NCBI RefSeq assembly: GCF_020463795.1
Contig: NZ_CP080025.1
Coordinates: 4,337,501-4,401,500 of the forward strand
Origin: Echinicola marina
Lineage (GTDB): Bacteria > Bacteroidota > Bacteroidia > Cytophagales > Cyclobacteriaceae
DNA length: 64,000 nucleotides
Direction of reading: 5' to 3'
The first letter of the stretch is position 1; every line of letters begins with the position of its first letter. The position numbers were made by a program, and so were the translations under genes. Shown here in pieces: positions 23,332-60,900 of this stretch. The notes below the pieces were generated by a model. It worked only from the letters and a program-made list of their open reading frames with translations. It was not told the DNA's origin and ran no database searches.

Positions 23332-23793
23332 TCAATCGAATATTTTTAATTGATAATTCGTCTTCAGTTTTTTATATCCTTTTTCCAGCCCTTGACTCTT
23401 TACATAATTAGCGATCTTTTCCTCTGTTCCATGTTGGCCTACCGTATTGACAAAATATCCCTTACCCCAAAACTCCCCTCCCCAGAGCTGTTTTTTCACC
23501 TCTGGGCATTCTTTAAACACCTCTCGCGCCACTAAACTCTTTATCGTTCTCACTATTTTGGTTATACTATACGTGGGAACCGATTGGATCAGAAAATGTA
23601 CATGGTCAGCATCTGTACCGATTTCCAGAAATTTAATCTCATATCTTAGTTCTATCTGTTCACACGTCGATGTCAGAACTTTATCAACCTCTTTACTGAA
23701 CACTACTCGTCTATATTTTGCTGAGCAAACTATATGGTACAGCAAAACTGATACATTATGACTCTTATGGATATACTTACTTTCTTGCGACAT
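23332..23793 (-). CDS. tnpA: IS200/IS605 transposase TnpA (Y1 HUH)
   Basis: The 153-residue protein has the typical size and layout. The start reads HNVSVLLYHIVCSAKYRRVVF, quoted here only to mark the strand that opens the fold. The HUH motif is HVHFLIQ, after DAD. The catalytic tyrosine is in ANYVKSQG near the C-terminus. TnpA works as a dimer on single-stranded DNA, cutting beside the hairpins and moving the element by peel-and-paste. No frameshift or stop interrupts it, so the element could be active. Confidence 0.92.
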   Translation of the reverse strand: MSQESKYIHKSHNVSVLLYHIVCSAKYRRVVFSKEVDKVLTSTCEQIELRYEIKFLEIGTDADHVHFLIQSVPTYSITKIVRTIKSLVAREVFKECPEVKKQLWGGEFWGKGYFVNTVGQHGTEEKIANYVKSQGLEKGYKKLKTNYQLKIFD

Positions 23794-27509: not shown

Positions 27510-27539
27510 TTTATTTAGGATAAGTTTGTCCGAAATAAA
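27510..27539 (+). promoter_or_regulatory. Operator-like inverted repeat over a -7 element before the Rrf2 gene
   Basis: Arms TTTATTTAGGA (27510-27520) and TCCGAAATAAA (27529-27539) match at 10 of 11 positions around an 8-nt centre, TAAGTTTG, which itself fits the -7 consensus TAnnTTTG. The layout is that of an autoregulated promoter for the Rrf2 gene 36 nt downstream. No clear -33 TTTG is seen. Confidence 0.6.
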
Positions 27540-27575
27540 AAAGAGCTTACCTTTGCCCCAGTAAAATAGTAATCA

Positions 27576-28010
27576 ATGTTTTCAAAAGCTTGTGAATACG
27601 CCATCAGGGCCGTCTTGTACATTGCGACCCAATCAGAGCAAGGCAAAAGGACTTCTTTAAAAGCCATTTCTAAGGAAATAGATTCACCTGAAGCCTTCAC
27701 AGCAAAAATCCTTCAGCAGCTCTCCAAAAACAATGTCTTGCAATCCATAAAAGGTCCGAATGGGGGATTTGAGATTGATGAGGCTAGCATGCAGCGCATT
27801 AAGCTGATCGAAATCGTAAGGATCATGGATGGTGAGCAGCTATTTACAGGATGTGCGCTTGGCTTAAAGGCTTGCAATATGGATAAACCATGCCCTTTGC
27901 ACCATGAATTCCTTGGGATAAGAACCAATATCCATCAATTATTGGACAATACCACCATCAAAAAATTAGTCAATGATTTAGAGTTAGGATTGACATTCCT
28001 TAAGCGGTAA
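27576..28010 (+). CDS. Rrf2-family transcriptional regulator (NsrR/IscR-like)
   Basis: The 144-residue protein has an N-terminal winged helix (SKACEYAIRAVLYIA, KAISKEIDSPEAFTAKILQQL, KGPNGGFEI in order). Its C-terminal half carries CALGLKACNMDKPC, a CX6CX5C cluster fit to bind an iron-sulfur centre, as in NsrR and IscR, then PLHHEF. The gene precedes hmp by 71 nt on the same strand, the usual setting for a nitric-oxide-sensing repressor of flavohaemoglobin. An inverted repeat overlaps its own -7 element, consistent with autoregulation. Whether the cluster senses NO or another signal is an inference from context. Confidence 0.9.
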   Translation: MFSKACEYAIRAVLYIATQSEQGKRTSLKAISKEIDSPEAFTAKILQQLSKNNVLQSIKGPNGGFEIDEASMQRIKLIEIVRIMDGEQLFTGCALGLKACNMDKPCPLHHEFLGIRTNIHQLLDNTTIKKLVNDLELGLTFLKR

Positions 28011-28081
28011 AAAAAAATTCAACCATTAAAAGATAAAAAGGTCTTTTATTCTTCTATTAATCAAATAAAACAATCGACAAA

Positions 28082-29293
28082 ATGGCAAGTGCTAAAACCA
28101 TCGAAATTGTAAAATCCACAGCTCCTGTACTCAAAGAGCATGGAGAAATCATCACGAAAGTATTCTACAAGAACATCTTCACCAAGCATCCAGAACTGAA
28201 GAACATTTTCAATATGACACACCAGGCCAAGGGATCCCAACCCAAGGTTTTGGCTAATGCCATTTTCCAATATGCTACCTATATTGATCAATTGGAAATG
28301 CTATCCGGGGCCGTGAATGCCATAGCGCATAAGCACAGTTCCCTGTCCATAACACCAGAAATGTACCCCATAGTAGGGGAAAACTTACTACTGGCCATCA
28401 AAGAGGTATTGGGAGATGCTGCCACAGAAGAGATCATTGATGCCTGGGCAGAAGCCTATGGAGATTTGGCCAAAATATTTATCCAAACGGAAGAAACGAT
28501 ATACCATACACAAGAAAAACGGGCTGGAGGTTTCCGTGGGAAAAAACAATTTAAAGTCGTTCAAAAGACAGTAGAAAGCGAAATTATAACCTCATTTTAT
28601 CTCCAGCCAGCCGATGGGAGCGAGGTGCCCCACTTTGTACCAGGCCAATACATTGCCCTCAGTGTACAGATCCCAGGAGAGAAACATTTGCATACTAGAA
28701 ATTATAGTTTATCAGACCTGCCAGCTAAGGACAGCCTAAGAATCAGTGTGAAGAAAGAACCAGGTAATCCTGTAGGTATAGTTTCCAACTTTCTTCATAC
28801 CGACATAGTAGTGGGCGACATATTGGAAATAGGTATGCCATCAGGTGAGTTCACCCTCAAAAATTCTGAAAAACCAGTAGTGCTAATTGCTGGAGGAGTA
28901 GGAATAACACCGCTTCTCAGCATGTATAAACAACTAAATCTAGAAGACAAAAAGGTAACTCTCTTCCAGTGTGCCATTAATTCAGATGTTCAGGCTTTTA
29001 GGAATGAAATCCAAACTATCAGCAAAGCCCAAAGCGAGTATAAAATAGTTTATAGTGATCCTACAGAAGAAGATGTGAAAGTTCAGAACTTTGATCATAG
29101 AGGTTTACTTACGGTAGACATATTGCAAGCTTCATGGCCAGCCGAAGGAGCGGAAGTGTACTTCTGCGGACCTAAACCTTTTATGAGACATGTCAACCAA
29201 TTGCTCTCAGAAATGGAGATTAGCGAAGAAAATATCCACTTTGAATTCTTCGGTCCAAGTGAAGACTTAAAACAGGAAAGTTTAGCCCTATAA
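28082..29293 (+). CDS. hmp: Nitric oxide dioxygenase (flavohaemoglobin Hmp)
   Basis: The enzyme converts NO and O2 to nitrate with NAD(P)H. Residues 1-140 are a globin with the proximal histidine in AIAHKHSSL and the usual ITPEMYPIVGENLL region. Residues 150-260 form an FAD-binding barrel (RNYSLSDLP, GIVSNFLH). Residues 265-395 form an NAD-binding domain (VVLIAGGVGITPLLSMY, VYFCGPKPFM). Its 403-residue length is normal. It follows the Rrf2 gene and is probably under its control. The 71-nt gap holds an ATAAAA/TTTTAT inverted repeat (in the 28040 region) that could be an extra operator. Confidence 0.96.
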   Translation: MASAKTIEIVKSTAPVLKEHGEIITKVFYKNIFTKHPELKNIFNMTHQAKGSQPKVLANAIFQYATYIDQLEMLSGAVNAIAHKHSSLSITPEMYPIVGENLLLAIKEVLGDAATEEIIDAWAEAYGDLAKIFIQTEETIYHTQEKRAGGFRGKKQFKVVQKTVESEIITSFYLQPADGSEVPHFVPGQYIALSVQIPGEKHLHTRNYSLSDLPAKDSLRISVKKEPGNPVGIVSNFLHTDIVVGDILEIGMPSGEFTLKNSEKPVVLIAGGVGITPLLSMYKQLNLEDKKVTLFQCAINSDVQAFRNEIQTISKAQSEYKIVYSDPTEEDVKVQNFDHRGLLTVDILQASWPAEGAEVYFCGPKPFMRHVNQLLSEMEISEENIHFEFFGPSEDLKQESLAL

Positions 29294-29306
29294 GCTATCT
29301 CTTTAA

Positions 29307-29358
29307 TTTAAAGGTAAGATCCAAAGTCAATGAAAATGGCCTTGGATCTTACTTTAAA
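29307..29358. terminator. Stem-loop between convergent hmp and HPP genes
   Basis: A 15-bp stem with one bulged G (29307-29322 with 29344-29358) lies between the stops of two convergent genes. The T tract is short, so termination is likely but not certain. Confidence 0.6.
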
Positions 29359-29373
29359 TGACCTGACGCAATT

Positions 29374-30009
29374 TTATTTATTGGTATTGATTCCTATGCA
29401 CCTTTTTAAATTCATGATATACTTTTCCCCACGACTTTGGTGTTTTTTAGGATGCATATTATAGGGATAATGCCTGTCCTTAGGAAAATTATTGACGAGC
29501 AAGGCAATGACCAATAGGATAATAGCTCCTGTAAATACAGGACTAAAGACATAAAAATAACCCAAGGATTTTATTTTTTCAGAACCAATGACAGCAATTA
29601 ATGCAGAAGCTCCACCTGGAGGATGCAGGGCCTTTAGCATCTGCATGGCCACAATGGCCAAACCTACCGCAACGGCACAAGTGAGCCAAAAAACATCAAA
29701 ATACCCAACCGTATTGACAGTGGAAACTCCCACAAAAGCACTAATGGTATGACCCAAAACCAAATTCCTTGGCTGAGCTAAAGGGCTATTCGTCGCTCCA
29801 TAAACTAATACCGCGGAAGCCCCGAATGAACCAATCAAAAACACATTTTCCAAGGATGAAAATCCATGCAAGTTTGACTGAACAAAACCAATGGAACCTA
29901 TCCCCAAAACAGCCCCCACAAAGGTCCAAATATGATCTATAGGCTGTAATATGGTTTGCCTATAAACAATATATTTAGCCTTTCGATAACCTTTTTTTAT
30001 TCTTTTCAA
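29374..30009 (-). CDS. HPP family membrane protein
   Basis: The 211-residue protein has about five or six hydrophobic helices and the family's name motif in KALHPPGGASALIAV, preceded by GASAVLVYGATNSPLAQPRN. Both are typical of the HPP family. Plant HPP proteins transport nitrite across the plastid envelope, while bacterial members are mostly uncharacterised. The gene lies next to hmp (convergent) and the ClC channel gene (same strand, 137 nt upstream). This position fits nitrate/nitrite handling after NO detoxification, an inference only. A TAAATTTG -7-like site lies 35 nt upstream. Confidence 0.88.
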   Translation of the reverse strand: MKRIKKGYRKAKYIVYRQTILQPIDHIWTFVGAVLGIGSIGFVQSNLHGFSSLENVFLIGSFGASAVLVYGATNSPLAQPRNLVLGHTISAFVGVSTVNTVGYFDVFWLTCAVAVGLAIVAMQMLKALHPPGGASALIAVIGSEKIKSLGYFYVFSPVFTGAIILLVIALLVNNFPKDRHYPYNMHPKKHQSRGEKYIMNLKRCIGINTNK

Positions 30010-30043
30010 AAGTAAATATTTTCTACAATCCTCAAAACTCCTG

Positions 30044-30051
30044 CAAATTTA
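30044..30051 (-). promoter_or_regulatory. Candidate -7 element for the HPP gene
   Basis: On the minus strand the site reads TAAATTTG, matching TAnnTTTG, 35 nt before the HPP start codon. The -33 region is only a partial match, so the call is tentative. Confidence 0.35.
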
Positions 30052-30146
30052 AGCACTAATCTCTAACCATAAAGTAAATGCCCAATTATTGGAATGAATC
30101 AGCTGCCATAAAGAGGAGAATTAATATTCCATTGCATAAGAAACAC

Positions 30147-31424
30147 TTATTCCTCACTCGTTTTCACTTTTTGAGAACTAATAAATGGGACTTTAGGCGC
30201 TAGGAAATATCCCGTTAAACTGGCAAAGAAAATAGGCACGAAATACTGAAACCCTGTTAAAGTGGTCAATAATATTGTGGTACTCATAGGTGTTCTGGTC
30301 ACACAAACATTGATGGCTGCCATACAGCTGACCATCCCAAGTGATAGACTGATACCAGGCAAAAATTGATGAACTATTAAACCTAAGGTACCTCCAATAA
30401 AGAACAATGGTATAATAAAACCACCTCTCCAACCTGAGGTCACCGTTATCGATACAGCCAATATCTTAAACAAAAGAAGCAAACAAAGAAAAAACATGGT
30501 CCTTTCTTCAGACAATAACTCATTCAATTCATGATGTCCAAAATATCTTGTTAGTGGAAAATAAAATGCAATTATTCCCAGCAAAAGGCCACCAATAAGT
30601 GTTTTGACAAAAATTGGAGCATGAAAATAGGAAAAACATGATTTAAGCCATTTAGTACAGTAGATAAAAAACCATCCAAGCGCTGTCCCCAAACAAGCAA
30701 AAAGTACCGCATAGCCAAAATCAAGCTTACTGGCCATTTCGTAGGAAGGGAGTTGCCATATGGGACCTATGCCTAAATGGACCACCAATGCAAAAATGAT
30801 ATAACTGAAACAGCTGGCCACAAATGCAGGTATAATCGCTTTGTAATATTCAACTGCATATTTATAATGTAATATTTCCAAAGAGAATAAACTTCCACCA
30901 AGAGGAGCCCCAAAAAGTGCAGTAAAGCCAGACGCCATCCCTGCAATGCTTAAGGATCTCAGGGATTCACCTTTTAACCTCAACAATTTCCCTAACCAGG
31001 TTCCGGTAGACCCTGTTACTTGGACCAGAGGTGCCTCAGGACCTAAACTTCCTCCCGCTGCAACGCATAACAGTGAAGACAGTATCATAGAGGGATTATT
31101 CTTAGGATCCAGTTTTCCTTTATTAAATCGAATATTATTCACGATTAAATGAATCTCTCCAGGATCACCTATCCAGTGAATGACCAATCCTGCAAGTAAT
31201 CCAGCCAAAGCCATGACAGGGATTACTGTCCATCCTTCAAAAAAAGTAACTTGGTGAATTAAAAATTCCAAACTCACCCAATAGAGACCTGCCATGATAC
31301 CACCTATAATACCTAATGCTGCCCAAAGGAGAAAAGACCTGCTGAAAACAAAAGGGTTGAACTTTATGGGTTGATCTAAAAGATTGAGATAGGTGACTAA
31401 TTTCTTTTTGTTCTTGAATTTCAC
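30147..31424 (-). CDS. ClC-type chloride/anion channel or antiporter
   Basis: The 425-residue protein has the multi-helix ClC fold. The anion-filter motif GGSLGPEAPLVQ holds the gating glutamate (GxEGP-type, here GPEAP). Another filter strand is GWRGGFIIPLFFIGG, and a further conserved part is AGMASGFTALFGAPLGG. There are no CBS domains at the C-terminus. Members carry chloride, nitrate or fluoride. The substrate cannot be settled here. Upstream, a tandemly duplicated promoter lies about 240 nt before the start, and it shares sequence with the Rrf2 operator, so this gene may belong to the same stress regulon. Confidence 0.9.
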   Translation of the reverse strand: MKFKNKKKLVTYLNLLDQPIKFNPFVFSRSFLLWAALGIIGGIMAGLYWVSLEFLIHQVTFFEGWTVIPVMALAGLLAGLVIHWIGDPGEIHLIVNNIRFNKGKLDPKNNPSMILSSLLCVAAGGSLGPEAPLVQVTGSTGTWLGKLLRLKGESLRSLSIAGMASGFTALFGAPLGGSLFSLEILHYKYAVEYYKAIIPAFVASCFSYIIFALVVHLGIGPIWQLPSYEMASKLDFGYAVLFACLGTALGWFFIYCTKWLKSCFSYFHAPIFVKTLIGGLLLGIIAFYFPLTRYFGHHELNELLSEERTMFFLCLLLLFKILAVSITVTSGWRGGFIIPLFFIGGTLGLIVHQFLPGISLSLGMVSCMAAINVCVTRTPMSTTILLTTLTGFQYFVPIFFASLTGYFLAPKVPFISSQKVKTSEE

Positions 31425-31665
31425 TGTAAAATGAATGATTTAACGAGGGTGGCAAAGCATTAAATAATTTAATAAATCAGGATAACATGACCATAACTAC
31501 ACATTATATTATCCCTGCATGTCCTTTCCAAAATGAATTTTTACGTACACCTACTTAGATTAAAAGGGAACAGTACGGGTCATTTTGATTAAAGTATCAA
31601 CTGCTTCGATCTTGAAACTACTTGGACAATGGATTGATGATTATTGGCATCATAGCAGATAATCA

Positions 31666-31730
31666 GACAAATTTAATGCTGAATTTATTTAGGACAAATT
31701 TAATGCTGAATTTATTTAGGACAAATTTAA
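31666..31730 (-). repeat. 27-bp tandem repeat (2.4 copies) forming duplicated promoters
   Basis: Two exact 27-bp copies (31666-31692, 31693-31719) and an 11-bp partial third form this block. On the minus strand each contains TAAATTTG (31668-31675, 31695-31702, 31722-31729). The preceding TTTG lies exactly 19 nt before it, giving two overlapping TTTG-N19-TAAATTTG promoters pointing to the ClC gene. The plus strand shows TTTATTTAGGA in each copy, identical to the left arm of the Rrf2 operator. The rest of 31425-31765 holds no gene. Confidence 0.65.
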
Positions 31731-31765
31731 CATTTTTTTAGCTTTTAACATCCCAAAATACTGAT

Positions 31766-34486
31766 TTAGTCTTCCCCATCATGGCCCTTATCTATATGCA
31801 ATACAATATCCGTTTTTTCCTCCTCCAGCGGGATTTTATAGGCTCCTCCAATTTTTGTATAAGCCAAGTCCTCTGCATTTCCTTCAATCCTTAAAAAGGC
31901 ACTGGGAGTATAATCGTCCTTAGCATTTAAGCTCAACTTTAGTCTACCAGTTTTAGTATGATAACTGACTTCATGGAATGTCCCCGCATCAAGGGTCAAC
32001 CAGACTTGAGCAGGAGCAATAAAGATTTTGGACTTTGCGGCTGTAGTCAATTTCACATGAACCGTTTCACCTTTTATTTCTAAGTTCCCACCAAAAGCCA
32101 GCCAGCCCAAATCTTCGTCTTTCGTGATATAAGTGGCGGTATTGACTGCATAGCCATAAAAACCAGAACCATAATCCCCAGATAAATAATCAATCCTTAA
32201 GGTAGAAGGATAGGAGTGAAAAGCAGCTGGCCCAAAGCCGTCCTGGGTGATATTGGCAATGCCCCCAAGTAAACCACCATACCCCACTTGCAACAAATAC
32301 AGGTTTTCTGGGCTTTTTCGAAATTGCTTTAATACTGGAATGGCATTCAATGAAGAGCCATAGTGGTGGATCTGCCGTTCCACCCTGGACAGTTTACCTC
32401 CATAAAGGAAATCCCAGTAACGACGGGCATTTCCATTATAGGCCCAATGAGGTAAGGTAGGCATATAAGCCAAGATGGCATCTAAGGTTACCCTTGCTTT
32501 ATGATCATAGCCGAAATAATCTGACCACATATAAACTTCCTCCTGTCCCGTAGAATCCCATGGCATTTCACTGCCGAAGGGATATTCCAAGGCTTTCCAA
32601 TGAATCGCCCGGCTATGCATTCTTGCTTCCAAGTCGCTGGCCATTGCTTCTAAATTTTCGTTTTTCAAATCCTCCAGGATAAATAGAAAAACCGATCCCT
32701 CCATTTGTCCAAACTGCGCATAATAGGGGGCATGCTCTACCATAGCGATACTTGTATGGTAAGCTTGTTTGAGATACCATTCCCAAGGTCTATTATCCAC
32801 CAATCCCTCATGGTAGCGAGCAAGCCGGTACATCACCCAATAAGCTGCTGCCACATGGGGATAATTATAGGACCTACCGGGATCATTGGCCTGTTGATGG
32901 TTCCACGCTGCCCATGTATCATAATTAATACTGTCTAGATAAGTACCTTTAGGCAGAGAATCAGGTGCATAGTAAAAAACACTTTTCTTAACACCGTACT
33001 GGTGCTTTCCTTCACTATATTGGATATGGCCCCATAGCGTATGATCAATGAACTTTTGAAGTTTTTCTATTTCTGCTTTTTCTGGTTGAACCAATTGCTT
33101 CATAATAGCTGCTAACCAACTACCTGCACCACCTTCATCACTAAGCCCTGCCACCCAAGCCCTGCTGTCCTGTGTAAGTTGCTCTTTGGTCTCATAATCA
33201 TAACTGATCACAGAAGGATTTCTTTTGAAAATAGGATCAGCTTGATCAAACCATTGCTTGGTCATTAAGAAATTCCCAAAATCATCCACTACTTCAGTTT
33301 CAGGTTTGATGACTTTATAATTAATGGATTGCTTAAGCCCATTTTCATAAGTGAGGATGACCCTGGAACGGCCCCATTTTTTCCCTTCTACAAGCATTTT
33401 TTTTACACCTTTCTCGGTAAATCCATCTTGTTGGATCCTAAGCGCTCCCTTAGGTGTAATTTCAATGGATTTGATCTTATGGTCATAATCAATAAATAAT
33501 TGAGCTCGGATATCCTGAGGAATCACATAGCCCGGGATACCCCTTGTCACTGGTCTTTTTTCCTCTCTTAGTTTTTCCTGTATTTTCTCTATTCCTGCTG
33601 CAAGGACAAATTTTAAGGCAAAGTCTTTCCTTTCTCCAGGCTGCAATACAAGGGAAGTAGGAGGATTCCATTGTTCTACACCCTTCCATTCCTCTTCTGC
33701 ATAGGCTTTACTGTAAACCATCCACTCATGAAAACCTTCAAAAACAATACTTCTGGGCGTTGGGTCATCCAATAATGGCCTATAAGCCTCAAAAGCCATA
33801 TTTTCCTCAGGAAGGACCAATAGGGCAGGTCCTTGTCCATTTAACCTTTTGGCTTCCAGATAACCGGCATCCAATCCTATATAGGGATCAAAAAACACAT
33901 TTTGGGCATGGGTTTCTACCAGCGATTTCCCCTCAAGGATATTATTGAATACCATCGGCACACCTAATGCTCCTATTTCTACTGCTAGATGGGTTTTATT
34001 GGTGATTTGAAAACGAAGTACCAACTGCCCATTAATCAACTCATAAAAGCGTGTGACAGACACAGGAATATCTTCCGGTAAGGTGTTCGTTAAATCTGCA
34101 GCTGCCAAAATATTTCCTGTAACTTCGAGGGGCTTGACAGCTTTTCTTTGGCTAGCAGTAGAGTAAGACTTCCATTCGTTTTTTCCCTCCTTGATCCTCA
34201 AGTTGATATCACCCAGATGGTACAGACCGTCTTTGTCCCTTAATTCCAAGCGATCACCTGGTGTAAAATCAAAATGAGTATCTTGCGCAGGCCCCAAACT
34301 GGCAACAGTCTGAGATGCCTTGACCAATTTGATATGAAAATCAGGTGTTTTGAACTTTTGGTAAACTTCTGCAATTCCCAGTGTGGATTCCTTCTCTTCC
34401 AAACTGCTCCAGTAATTCTGGCCATGAACCTTTATAGTGCCCATCAGGAAAATAAATAAGGACAGGAAATAGGCTTGGGTTTTCAT
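31766..34486 (-). CDS. Secreted DUF5695-type protein
   Basis: Starting at the ATG at 34486, the protein is 906 residues long, with a signal peptide (FLSLFIFLMGTIKVHGQ). An upstream in-frame ATG at 34507 would add seven residues before the signal. The N-terminal third is rich in beta strands. The middle and C-terminal part contain helix pairs such as AAYWVMYRLARYHEGL and PHWAYNGNARRYWDFLYGG, suggesting an (alpha/alpha) toroid typical of glycan-processing enzymes. I recall this layout as DUF5695 in Bacteroidota but cannot verify it. It lies 54 nt downstream of the GH127 gene on the same strand, so the two are probably co-transcribed and act on the same glycan. Confidence 0.72.
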   Translation of the reverse strand: MKTQAYFLSLFIFLMGTIKVHGQNYWSSLEEKESTLGIAEVYQKFKTPDFHIKLVKASQTVASLGPAQDTHFDFTPGDRLELRDKDGLYHLGDINLRIKEGKNEWKSYSTASQRKAVKPLEVTGNILAAADLTNTLPEDIPVSVTRFYELINGQLVLRFQITNKTHLAVEIGALGVPMVFNNILEGKSLVETHAQNVFFDPYIGLDAGYLEAKRLNGQGPALLVLPEENMAFEAYRPLLDDPTPRSIVFEGFHEWMVYSKAYAEEEWKGVEQWNPPTSLVLQPGERKDFALKFVLAAGIEKIQEKLREEKRPVTRGIPGYVIPQDIRAQLFIDYDHKIKSIEITPKGALRIQQDGFTEKGVKKMLVEGKKWGRSRVILTYENGLKQSINYKVIKPETEVVDDFGNFLMTKQWFDQADPIFKRNPSVISYDYETKEQLTQDSRAWVAGLSDEGGAGSWLAAIMKQLVQPEKAEIEKLQKFIDHTLWGHIQYSEGKHQYGVKKSVFYYAPDSLPKGTYLDSINYDTWAAWNHQQANDPGRSYNYPHVAAAYWVMYRLARYHEGLVDNRPWEWYLKQAYHTSIAMVEHAPYYAQFGQMEGSVFLFILEDLKNENLEAMASDLEARMHSRAIHWKALEYPFGSEMPWDSTGQEEVYMWSDYFGYDHKARVTLDAILAYMPTLPHWAYNGNARRYWDFLYGGKLSRVERQIHHYGSSLNAIPVLKQFRKSPENLYLLQVGYGGLLGGIANITQDGFGPAAFHSYPSTLRIDYLSGDYGSGFYGYAVNTATYITKDEDLGWLAFGGNLEIKGETVHVKLTTAAKSKIFIAPAQVWLTLDAGTFHEVSYHTKTGRLKLSLNAKDDYTPSAFLRIEGNAEDLAYTKIGGAYKIPLEEEKTDIVLHIDKGHDGED

Positions 34487-52845: not shown

Positions 52846-54704
52846 CTTTTAACTTCTCCTTTCTTGATATATGCCTGTTCAGGATGATTAATCAATTCGG
52901 GATGAAGGTATTTTAGTTCTCCAGATTTGATCATTTCTTTAAGGTATTGCCGCTTTATATATTTTTCACCTTTACCTAATATGTTGGCGATATGGGAAGC
53001 TTTCACCGCTCTTTCTGCACATATTTCCTTTATAATTTCCCCAACCTTTTTGTGATCATGTTCCCTCTGATTTAGTTCGTTGATTCGATTTTCCAGTTCC
53101 TTGCTAATGGTAGGTGGTGTACTTAAATCCTGGGCTAGGTTACTTAAATCTTGAGGTGGTGTACTTAAATGCTGAGCTAGGGTACTTAATTCTTGGGGTG
53201 GTGCACTTAAATCCTGAGCTGGGGTACTTAATTTTTTTCCGGCGATATAATAAGTTCCTTTTCCTTTACCCTTCGGCTCTAACAGATCATGATTTTTTAA
53301 TGATCTAAGTTCGATACTGGCCTTTAAAGTGTCACAATCCGCCATCTGACGATATTTATGATTATCTATGGCTCCAACTTCCCTTACAAAAATCAACGCT
53401 TGCTTTTGACTGTCGTTCAACTGTAACCCAGCAAACTGAGCCAACCAATCTACATCTTGTTGATCAAGAAAATGATGGAGCAATAAGCGGGTTACAAATT
53501 GGTTGTTATTCCTATCAGAATCGAATGTAGGAGGGGCCAAGTGAGAAGAAGCCATTAATTTTCTCATGGCCCGAATACCCGACCCTTTGGTCTCAGCTAA
53601 GTTCGTCTCATGAAATACTGCTGCAATAAATGGGTTTCTCGTTTCACTTCCTGGTTCTCCCAATTTGTCTTCAGCCTTAAGTGAATAACCTGGGTTGATA
53701 ATCTCAATACGATTATCATATCGGATCACCTGAATGGGTCTATGCTCACGGTAGGATCTGTGCATTACAGCATTGACGATGGCTTCACGAAGCGCTTTCG
53801 ATGGAAGTCCAACGGATTTGGCTTGCATCTCTCCATCTGATAATAAAAATCCTCTTGGAAGATCATTGTTAATCGCTTCGATCAATCGAAAAACCAAAGT
53901 TAGAAGTGGTCCTCTCATATCTATGGTAGTGAACCTGTCATCAGGATCCTGTACCCAAACATTGCCTGGAACCCTGATATAATCAACCCTCAACATAGGC
54001 ATATGTGCTCTTAAAGCTTTAGAACTTCCAAAAAGCACTAATCCGGATAGGTTAAGTTCACTTTTGTTCTGTTTGTTCACACAGCCTAGGGCTTCCAAAA
54101 GCTCAGCATCAGAGTAGCTTAATTCTTCTGCTGCAGCATTTACTTTTTCACGAAGAGTCCTATACCTTTTAAGCGCATTTTCATCTATATCCTCAAGGCT
54201 AGTACCCGTAACCGGGGTCTGATCATAACCTTGATAGTCAGCATAAAAGACCCGCAAATCATCTTCATTGCACCTTTGATCTGTTGGGCCGATACGTCGG
54301 TATGCTCCCTGGGGAAGTCCATCCGCTTTGAAATAAAAAGGCTTTTGGTTAAGAGAAAGCTCATCCACACGAACTTTTATTATGGTATCACCATGCACTC
54401 TTTCCACCGTGACTTTAGGTCGTACAGGAATATTGAACATTGAGCTACACTGGCTGACAAAATCTTTCTGAAAACTATCCGGGTCGGTAATATGGACTGT
54501 TTTATATTGAGGAATAAGCGAAGCTTTATCTTCAGCTACACCCAATAAGATATAACCACCACCTAATGAGGGTTCATTCGCAAAAGCGCACACCGTCTCC
54601 ATGACTGAATGTGAACTTTCATGCCCTCCCTTTGCTTCTATCCAATCGCATTCGTCCTGTTGGTTCAACAGTTTAAACAATTCTTCTGCTGTATAATCCT
54701 TCAT
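52842..54704 (-). CDS. AlbA_2/Schlafen-type ATP-binding protein with repeat linker
   Basis: The 620-residue protein begins with an AlbA_2 (Schlafen-type) domain (CDWIEAKGGHESSHSVMETVCAFAN, partial; GGYILLGVAED), residues 1-150. A GHKL-like ATP-binding fold follows (KALREAIVNAVMHRSYREH and IRYDNRIEIINPG, with GSGIRAM), residues 300-420. The C-terminal half holds six copies of a seven-residue LSxxxQx unit (about residues 489-530) before a winged-helix-like end. These proteins are common in restriction loci and may be DNA- or RNA-binding accessory factors. It lies 1 nt after Mod and overlaps Res by 4 nt, so it is part of the operon. Its activity is unknown. Confidence 0.8.
   Translation of the reverse strand: MKDYTAEELFKLLNQQDECDWIEAKGGHESSHSVMETVCAFANEPSLGGGYILLGVAEDKASLIPQYKTVHITDPDSFQKDFVSQCSSMFNIPVRPKVTVERVHGDTIIKVRVDELSLNQKPFYFKADGLPQGAYRRIGPTDQRCNEDDLRVFYADYQGYDQTPVTGTSLEDIDENALKRYRTLREKVNAAAEELSYSDAELLEALGCVNKQNKSELNLSGLVLFGSSKALRAHMPMLRVDYIRVPGNVWVQDPDDRFTTIDMRGPLLTLVFRLIEAINNDLPRGFLLSDGEMQAKSVGLPSKALREAIVNAVMHRSYREHRPIQVIRYDNRIEIINPGYSLKAEDKLGEPGSETRNPFIAAVFHETNLAETKGSGIRAMRKLMASSHLAPPTFDSDRNNNQFVTRLLLHHFLDQQDVDWLAQFAGLQLNDSQKQALIFVREVGAIDNHKYRQMADCDTLKASIELRSLKNHDLLEPKGKGKGTYYIAGKKLSTPAQDLSAPPQELSTLAQHLSTPPQDLSNLAQDLSTPPTISKELENRINELNQREHDHKKVGEIIKEICAERAVKASHIANILGKGEKYIKRQYLKEMIKSGELKYLHPELINHPEQAYIKKGEVKR
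53113..53238 (-). repeat. 42-bp tandem repeat (3 copies) inside the AlbA_2 gene
   Basis: Three consecutive 42-bp copies (53113-53154, 53155-53196, 53197-53238) differ at a few positions. Each encodes 14 residues, that is two heptads of the LSTPPQD / LSNLAQD type. Changes in copy number would keep the frame. Confidence 0.85.
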
Positions 54705-60535: not shown

Positions 60536-60900
60536 TTTATGGTTGAATAATCATTTAATTTTACATATGGTACTGGTACAGGGAAAGTGTTCGAAGGGCA
60601 AATTTGACTTTGGTATTCTGGTTTTTCGTCTGTGCCGTAAAGACTATAATTGATATATATTATCTCGTCCTTGGGTATTACTGCCCCCGTAAACTGGACA
60701 ACATTATCATATTTTTGTTCGTACCAGTCTAATTCCCTGCCCTTTACAGGGCCGCTTAGAATCTGAACAATATTTACATTATAACATGACTGATATCCAA
60801 TTACCTTAGCCTTTATGCATCCAGGATTTGGCACTTCTTCACATCCTGAAAAGATGAAAATAGCAATCAATGCTAGGAGAAAATTTTTTGGATTTTTCAT
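60526..60900 (-). CDS. Small Cys-containing lipoprotein, unknown
   Basis: From the ATG at 60900 (the longer in-frame TTG at 60909 is less likely) this 124-residue protein has a lipoprotein signal, LALIAIFIFSGC. The mature part has a few cysteines (CIKAKVIGYQSC, ICPS) that may form disulfides and no family I recognise. It overlaps the subtilase start by 10 nt, so the two are translated together and may be partners, for example as an inhibitor or maturation helper. That role is a guess. Confidence 0.62.
   Translation of the reverse strand: MKNPKNFLLALIAIFIFSGCEEVPNPGCIKAKVIGYQSCYNVNIVQILSGPVKGRELDWYEQKYDNVVQFTGAVIPKDEIIYINYSLYGTDEKPEYQSQICPSNTFPVPVPYVKLNDYSTIKCP

Follow-up and report, generated by a model that had tools for sequence, protein, structure and literature searches.

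Known nitrosative-stress regulators

NsrR is released from DNA when it reacts with NO. Its regulon, described for E. coli, Bacillus and Streptomyces (PMC1274295, PMC8175989), resembles the locus reported here in that an Rrf2-family regulator carrying three closely spaced cysteines lies next to hmp, the operator is palindromic, and hmp and NO-repair genes are the targets (predicted at our locus). The NsrR operator consists of two AAxATGCATTT motifs 1 bp apart (PMC8175989), and E. coli NsrR also accepts single half-sites (PMC3887101). IscR, RirA and CymR share the same fold family, and IscR and CymR are the closest solved structures. HcpR of Bacteroides (PMC1274295) is also a nitrosative-stress regulator of Bacteroidota; however, it belongs to the FNR/CRP family, and in most cases hcp is the sole predicted member of its regulon.

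We analysed a window of 64,000 nucleotides (bases 4337501-4401500 of a 5.69-Mb single-contig Echinicola genome), in which genes for an Rrf2-family regulator and hmp lie on one strand and genes for an HPP-family membrane protein and a ClC-type channel lie on the opposite strand, next to a DUF5695 gene (Table 1). The regulator belongs to the Rrf2 superfamily, with the domain covering the whole protein (PF02082, 91.6 bits; TIGR00738, 88.0 bits versus a cut-off of 73.3). All 83 regulators compared share residues C6, C93, C100, C106 and H109; the three cysteines C93, C100 and C106 could ligate an Fe-S cluster, so that cluster binding is suggested by the sequence. The NsrR equivalog NF008240 gives the regulator 49.8 bits, far under its cut-off of 182, and the operator found here, TTAWTTHGGAYAAWTTTRTCCDAAWTAA, does not match the NsrR operator. 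As neither its equivalog score nor its operator sequence fits, we do not file the regulator as NsrR; we think that it probably works like NsrR.

In detail, the locus differs from NsrR in that its operator reads GGAYA-N4-TRTCC with A/T arms rather than a pair of AAxATGCATTT motifs, and its predicted sites include a ClC/HPP promoter. Similarly, the regulator falls under all equivalog cut-offs of IscR, RirA and CymR, and the genes around it and its predicted targets point to NO rather than to Fe-S assembly or cysteine.

Table 1. Features of the Rrf2-hmp-HPP-ClC block (window positions)
Feature	Position	Strand	Details
Predicted Rrf2 operator, palindrome TTTATTTAGGA-TAAGTTTG-TCCGAAATAAA	27510-27539	+	TTTATTTAGGA 27510-27520, TAAGTTTG 27521-27528, TCCGAAATAAA 27529-27539; inverted repeat; ortholog conservation; 31.9 bits
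Probable -33 element of Rrf2 promoter, TTTG	27525-27528	+	inside operator centre; TTTG-N19-TACCTTTG
Probable -7 element of Rrf2 promoter, TACCTTTG	27548-27555	+	spacing seen in orthologs; TTTG / TAnnTTTG consensus
Rrf2-family regulator	27576-28010	+	144 aa; probable Fe-S protein; PF02082, TIGR00738
Predicted second operator, upstream of hmp, ATTAAAAGATAAAAAGGTCTTTTAT	28024-28051	+	matches WAAARGAYMNNNNKRTCYTTTW; kept before hmp in other Echinicola
hmp, NO-inducible flavohemoprotein	28082-29293	+	NCBIfam NF009805, 520 bits versus cut-off 432
HPP-family membrane protein	29374-30009	-	Pfam PF04982
TAAATTTG upstream of HPP	30044-30051	-	no operator arm
ClC-type anion channel/transporter	30147-31424	-	Pfam PF00654
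27-bp tandem repeat	31666-31730	-	2.4 copies, 100% match; forms ClC promoters P1 and P2
P2 of ClC	31668-31698	-	-33 TTTG 31695-31698; -7 TAAATTTG 31668-31675
Inner ClC half-operator	31685-31698	-	product of duplication; arms 19.3 and -18.9 bits
P1 of ClC	31695-31725	-	-33 TTTG 31722-31725; -7 TAAATTTG 31695-31702
Predicted outer ClC operator	31712-31739	-	one strong and one weak arm; 19.6 bits
DUF5695 gene	end at 31766		neighbour of the block

A conserved palindrome in front of Rrf2

A sequence-only reading of this DNA had described an inverted repeat at the Rrf2 gene, lying over the -7 element. The repeat is present, its arms complementary at 10 of 11 positions. We fitted a palindromic motif model to the regions upstream of 80 named Bacteroidota Rrf2 orthologs together with the Echinicola ones, and the seeded start reached 1107.8, versus at most 550 from 12 random starts. 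De novo, the palindrome TTAWTTHGGAYAAWTTTRTCCDAAWTAA turned up in front of nearly every Rrf2 gene examined (86 upstream regions), mostly 63-70 bp 5' of the Rrf2 start codon, and 81 sequences (78 distinct) scored at least 15 bits with the motif. This comparison supports the Rrf2 inverted repeat as a conserved operator in front of the regulator across Bacteroidota.

The Bacteroidota housekeeping promoter has the consensus TTTG at -33 and TAnnTTTG at -7 (PMC7366714), and we found it at Rrf2 (27525-27555) and in both ClC promoters. TAnnTTTG starts 18-21 nt past the TTTR of the operator centre in 60 of the 78 distinct Rrf2 promoters, with a peak at 19-20. Hence, the midpoint of the operator coincides with the -33 element, and the spacer from there to the -7 is taken up by the downstream arm. 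With TAnnTTTG one promoter-spacing downstream in these promoters, we dropped TAAGTTTG as the -7, the role implied by the sequence-only reading; its TTTG probably fits a -33, with TACCTTTG as the -7.

Some 40 of the 80 Bacteroidota loci have another motif copy at a near-constant position around +447 from the Rrf2 start, just past the Rrf2 stop codon, where it mostly precedes a gene with a Ric-like translation, or other genes.

Sites elsewhere in the genome

For scanning, we retrained the motif on 63 sites, all from outside Echinicola, and applied it to 1.324 Mb (~23% of the genome) picked so as to contain the window and a denitrification island. The top five sites were those of Rrf2 (31.9 bits), ric (22.7 bits, genome position 5453459), the nos-nor operon (21.6 bits, 5465948), ClC (19.6 bits) and a hemerythrin gene (17.0 bits, 5477824), the ric, nos-nor and hemerythrin promoters being on the island; below these, scores were 15.7 bits and lower. 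The reversed-sequence control had a maximum of 17.7 bits, which lies under the ClC site and above the hemerythrin site. Matches of 12-15 bits at window position 60689 and in G009 (L169:3712) fall within open frames and were taken as chance, and a 14-bp core with 2 mismatches was too loose for use (>1000 matches).

The operator upstream of hmp scored only 3.8 bits with the Rrf2-promoter motif. The genome contains four exact copies of its pattern WAAARGAYMNNNNKRTCYTTTW, at hmp and at three places on the island; two of these three island sites helped shape the pattern, and one is new. Hence predicted operators precede hmp, ric, nos-nor and hemerythrin genes. The sequence-only reading had proposed a regulon of hmp, HPP and the channel, and its hmp and ClC members are supported by their sites, but HPP lacks an operator of its own (best score upstream, -9.6 bits) and the predicted regulon is wider.

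Named from their translations, the island genes resemble ric, a nos operon, NnrS, NO reductase, a cbb3-like subunit, hemerythrins and two Rrf2 paralogs. Binding of the sites chiefly by one of these paralogs, or jointly by all three regulators, instead of by the Rrf2 protein beside hmp, is quite unlikely. Identity among the paralogs is 48-50%, with FTAK and GPNGGF segments in common, and the island promoters carry the same motif, as joint or paralog binding would predict. However, the motif goes with the Rrf2 type of the window across Bacteroidota, at its own promoter, and among the Echinicola searched there are some with the site yet without these paralogs (e.g. G001 and G009).

The island (5452143-5480328) is 99.76-99.95% identical to DNA of another Echinicola species, G006, and the hmp-linked Rrf2 of G006 shares only 60% identity with its ortholog in this genome; this disparity points to recent transfer. 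A reverse-transcriptase gene of the group II intron type lies at one end of the island. A 13.5-bit operator-like site at 5469007 lies ~100 bp before a gene resembling anaerobic ribonucleotide reductase. The G006 hmp (L079:3403-6015) matches in two pieces separated by ~1.4 kb, which looks like an insertion within the gene.

The duplicated ClC promoter

We confirmed the 27-bp tandem repeat upstream of ClC, with period 27, and the two exact promoters reported in it: TTTG-N19-TAAATTTG occurs twice on the minus strand, P2 being 27 bp on from P1, and both have exactly the -33/-7 spacing of the Rrf2 promoters. The 240-nt ClC leader had no Rfam match up to E=5 to a riboswitch, fluoride or other.

The ClC copies had also been said to contain the Rrf2 operator sequence. 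They do share the 19-mer TAARTTTGTCCKAAATAAA, which is exact at 27521 (+), 31684 (-) and 31711 (-) and nowhere else in the 5.69-Mb genome, and which at up to 3 mismatches has 5 matches in the window versus 0.28 expected; since the pattern was drawn from these same sites, its uniqueness by itself is weak proof. A half-site pattern is exact genome-wide at the two ClC copies only. The bare 11-mer TTTATTTAGGA, which the sequence-only reading had named, proved uninformative, with 19 occurrences versus 14 for the reversed control, near background.

What the ClC copies share is a single arm. The outermost copy alone is a weak palindrome, with arms of 19.3 and 0.3 bits, the latter value being attained by 0.75% of intergenic 14-mers in the window, and the inner copy is a half-site. 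The ClC site is ~12 bits below the Rrf2 site. A shared Rrf2/ClC operator thus holds in that a site of the same motif is among the best of the scan and has an ortholog at the HPP gene of a sister species, but ClC has no whole operator.

When 5.7 Mb were simulated with a Markov model, sites of 19-21 bits arose about once per genome; a chance site is thus plausible over a whole genome but would be improbable in one intergenic gap 4 kb from Rrf2. Chance sites at this rate would suit a tandem that is merely a strong duplicated promoter, resembling the Rrf2 site through the shared TAAATTTG and an A/T-rich spacer, with no Rrf2 control of ClC. TAAATTTG is in itself a good -7, the inner copy has no second arm, and the site is at no other ClC locus compared. 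We consider this account somewhat unlikely because the likeness runs through TCCTAAATAAA, beyond the promoter elements, because only targets of known type outrank the ClC site in the scan, and because the site lies so near the Rrf2 gene and is kept before HPP in the sister Echinicola species G001.

Origin of the ClC site

In G001, HPP adjoins hmp with no ClC in between, and its promoter scores 19.3 bits; the ClC promoter of our genome is identical to it at 38 of 43 columns (E=1e-6). No such site was seen at 22 other ClC loci, whose upstream DNA peaked at 8.0 bits, and the remaining HPP upstream regions that we read all scored 0 bits or less; one of them is that of E. shivajiensis (G009), whose HPP likewise neighbours hmp. 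Hence, from its presence at the G001 HPP and its absence from the 22 ClC loci, the operator belongs to the HPP slot beside Rrf2-hmp and not to ClC. As judged from these comparisons, ClC most likely sits behind an HPP promoter that earlier held an Rrf2 operator, and the link of the Rrf2 motif to the channel gene appears specific to this species among the ClC loci compared. The operator of ClC seems to be a weaker, recently duplicated copy that was apparently picked up.

The ClC site may instead be a fossil, an operator copy or remnant that no longer binds and is retained since the promoter is needed. The weak second arm, a duplication that gave half-operators only, and the loss of the site at the E. 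shivajiensis HPP would all fit. We consider this to be unlikely, as both ClC copies and G001 keep TAAATTTGTCCKAAATAAA intact, including letters dispensable for a promoter.

No terminator was predicted between ClC and HPP; therefore, the two may be co-transcribed, and HPP could join the regulon only as a gene downstream of ClC. ClC and HPP are adjacent in two other genomes of the family, in operon order in one and divergent in the other, with no operator; this adjacency suggests a functional link between the two genes.

Proposed regulation and its meaning

With moderate confidence, we propose that a Bacteroidota Rrf2 regulator with NsrR-like NO control, probably an Fe-S protein, regulates its own gene through the operator at 27510-27539, and that ClC came to lie behind an HPP promoter with a prior Rrf2 operator and later underwent the 27-bp duplication. 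What we observed are the sites, their conservation, their geometry and their orthology; from this anatomy and what is known of NsrR, we infer that an Rrf2 dimer would cover the palindrome centred on -33, including the downstream arm between -33 and -7, and so keep RNA polymerase out. If NO damaged the cluster, the regulator would come off the DNA, and Rrf2, hmp and the operons for denitrification and NO repair would be switched on. P1 of ClC has the geometry of the Rrf2 promoter, carries a weak palindrome of the same motif and is orthologous to the HPP promoter of the sister Echinicola; the likely order is HPP operator first, ClC insertion next and tandem duplication last. The duplication would have added P2 with a half-operator only; therefore, ClC should be only partly repressed, as should HPP if the two share a transcript. 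E. coli NsrR (PMC3887101) offers a precedent for the use of such half-sites. Against this proposal we count the bit deficit of the ClC site, the rate of chance sites in simulation, the lack of the site at the E. shivajiensis HPP and at the 22 ClC loci, and the presence of three Rrf2 paralogs in the genome.

More tentatively, and with less than even confidence, the regulon may be a Bacteroidota-specific NO-type Rrf2 regulon with a -33-centred palindrome, extended in Echinicola to anion transport by HPP and ClC and so coupling NO removal with transport of N-oxyanions. HPP would then be a possible nitrite carrier, and ClC may have joined through promoter capture and half-operator duplication. HPP proteins include the nitrite transporter AtNITR2;1 (Maeda et al. 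2014, reviewed in PMC4137279), which fits the NO/nitrite/nitrate theme; AtNITR2;1 and the HPP protein of the window share a Pfam family, but the former is a plastid protein and the latter is bacterial.

The palindrome provides a concrete candidate operator for the NO-type Rrf2 regulator across Bacteroidota, and a literature search (without most subscription journals and regulon databases) found no earlier description of it. With it, NO regulons of Bacteroidota, including the Ric-linked ones in Flavobacteriia, would become predictable from sequence. The ClC site would be a readable case of a gene gaining a regulator site by landing behind an already regulated promoter, and would then show a tandem duplication copying just half an operator.

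Elsewhere in the window, an open reading frame at 23332-23793 resembles, as judged by eye, an IS200/IS605-type transposase, and 53112-53233 is a tandem repeat of 42-bp units in 2.9 copies.
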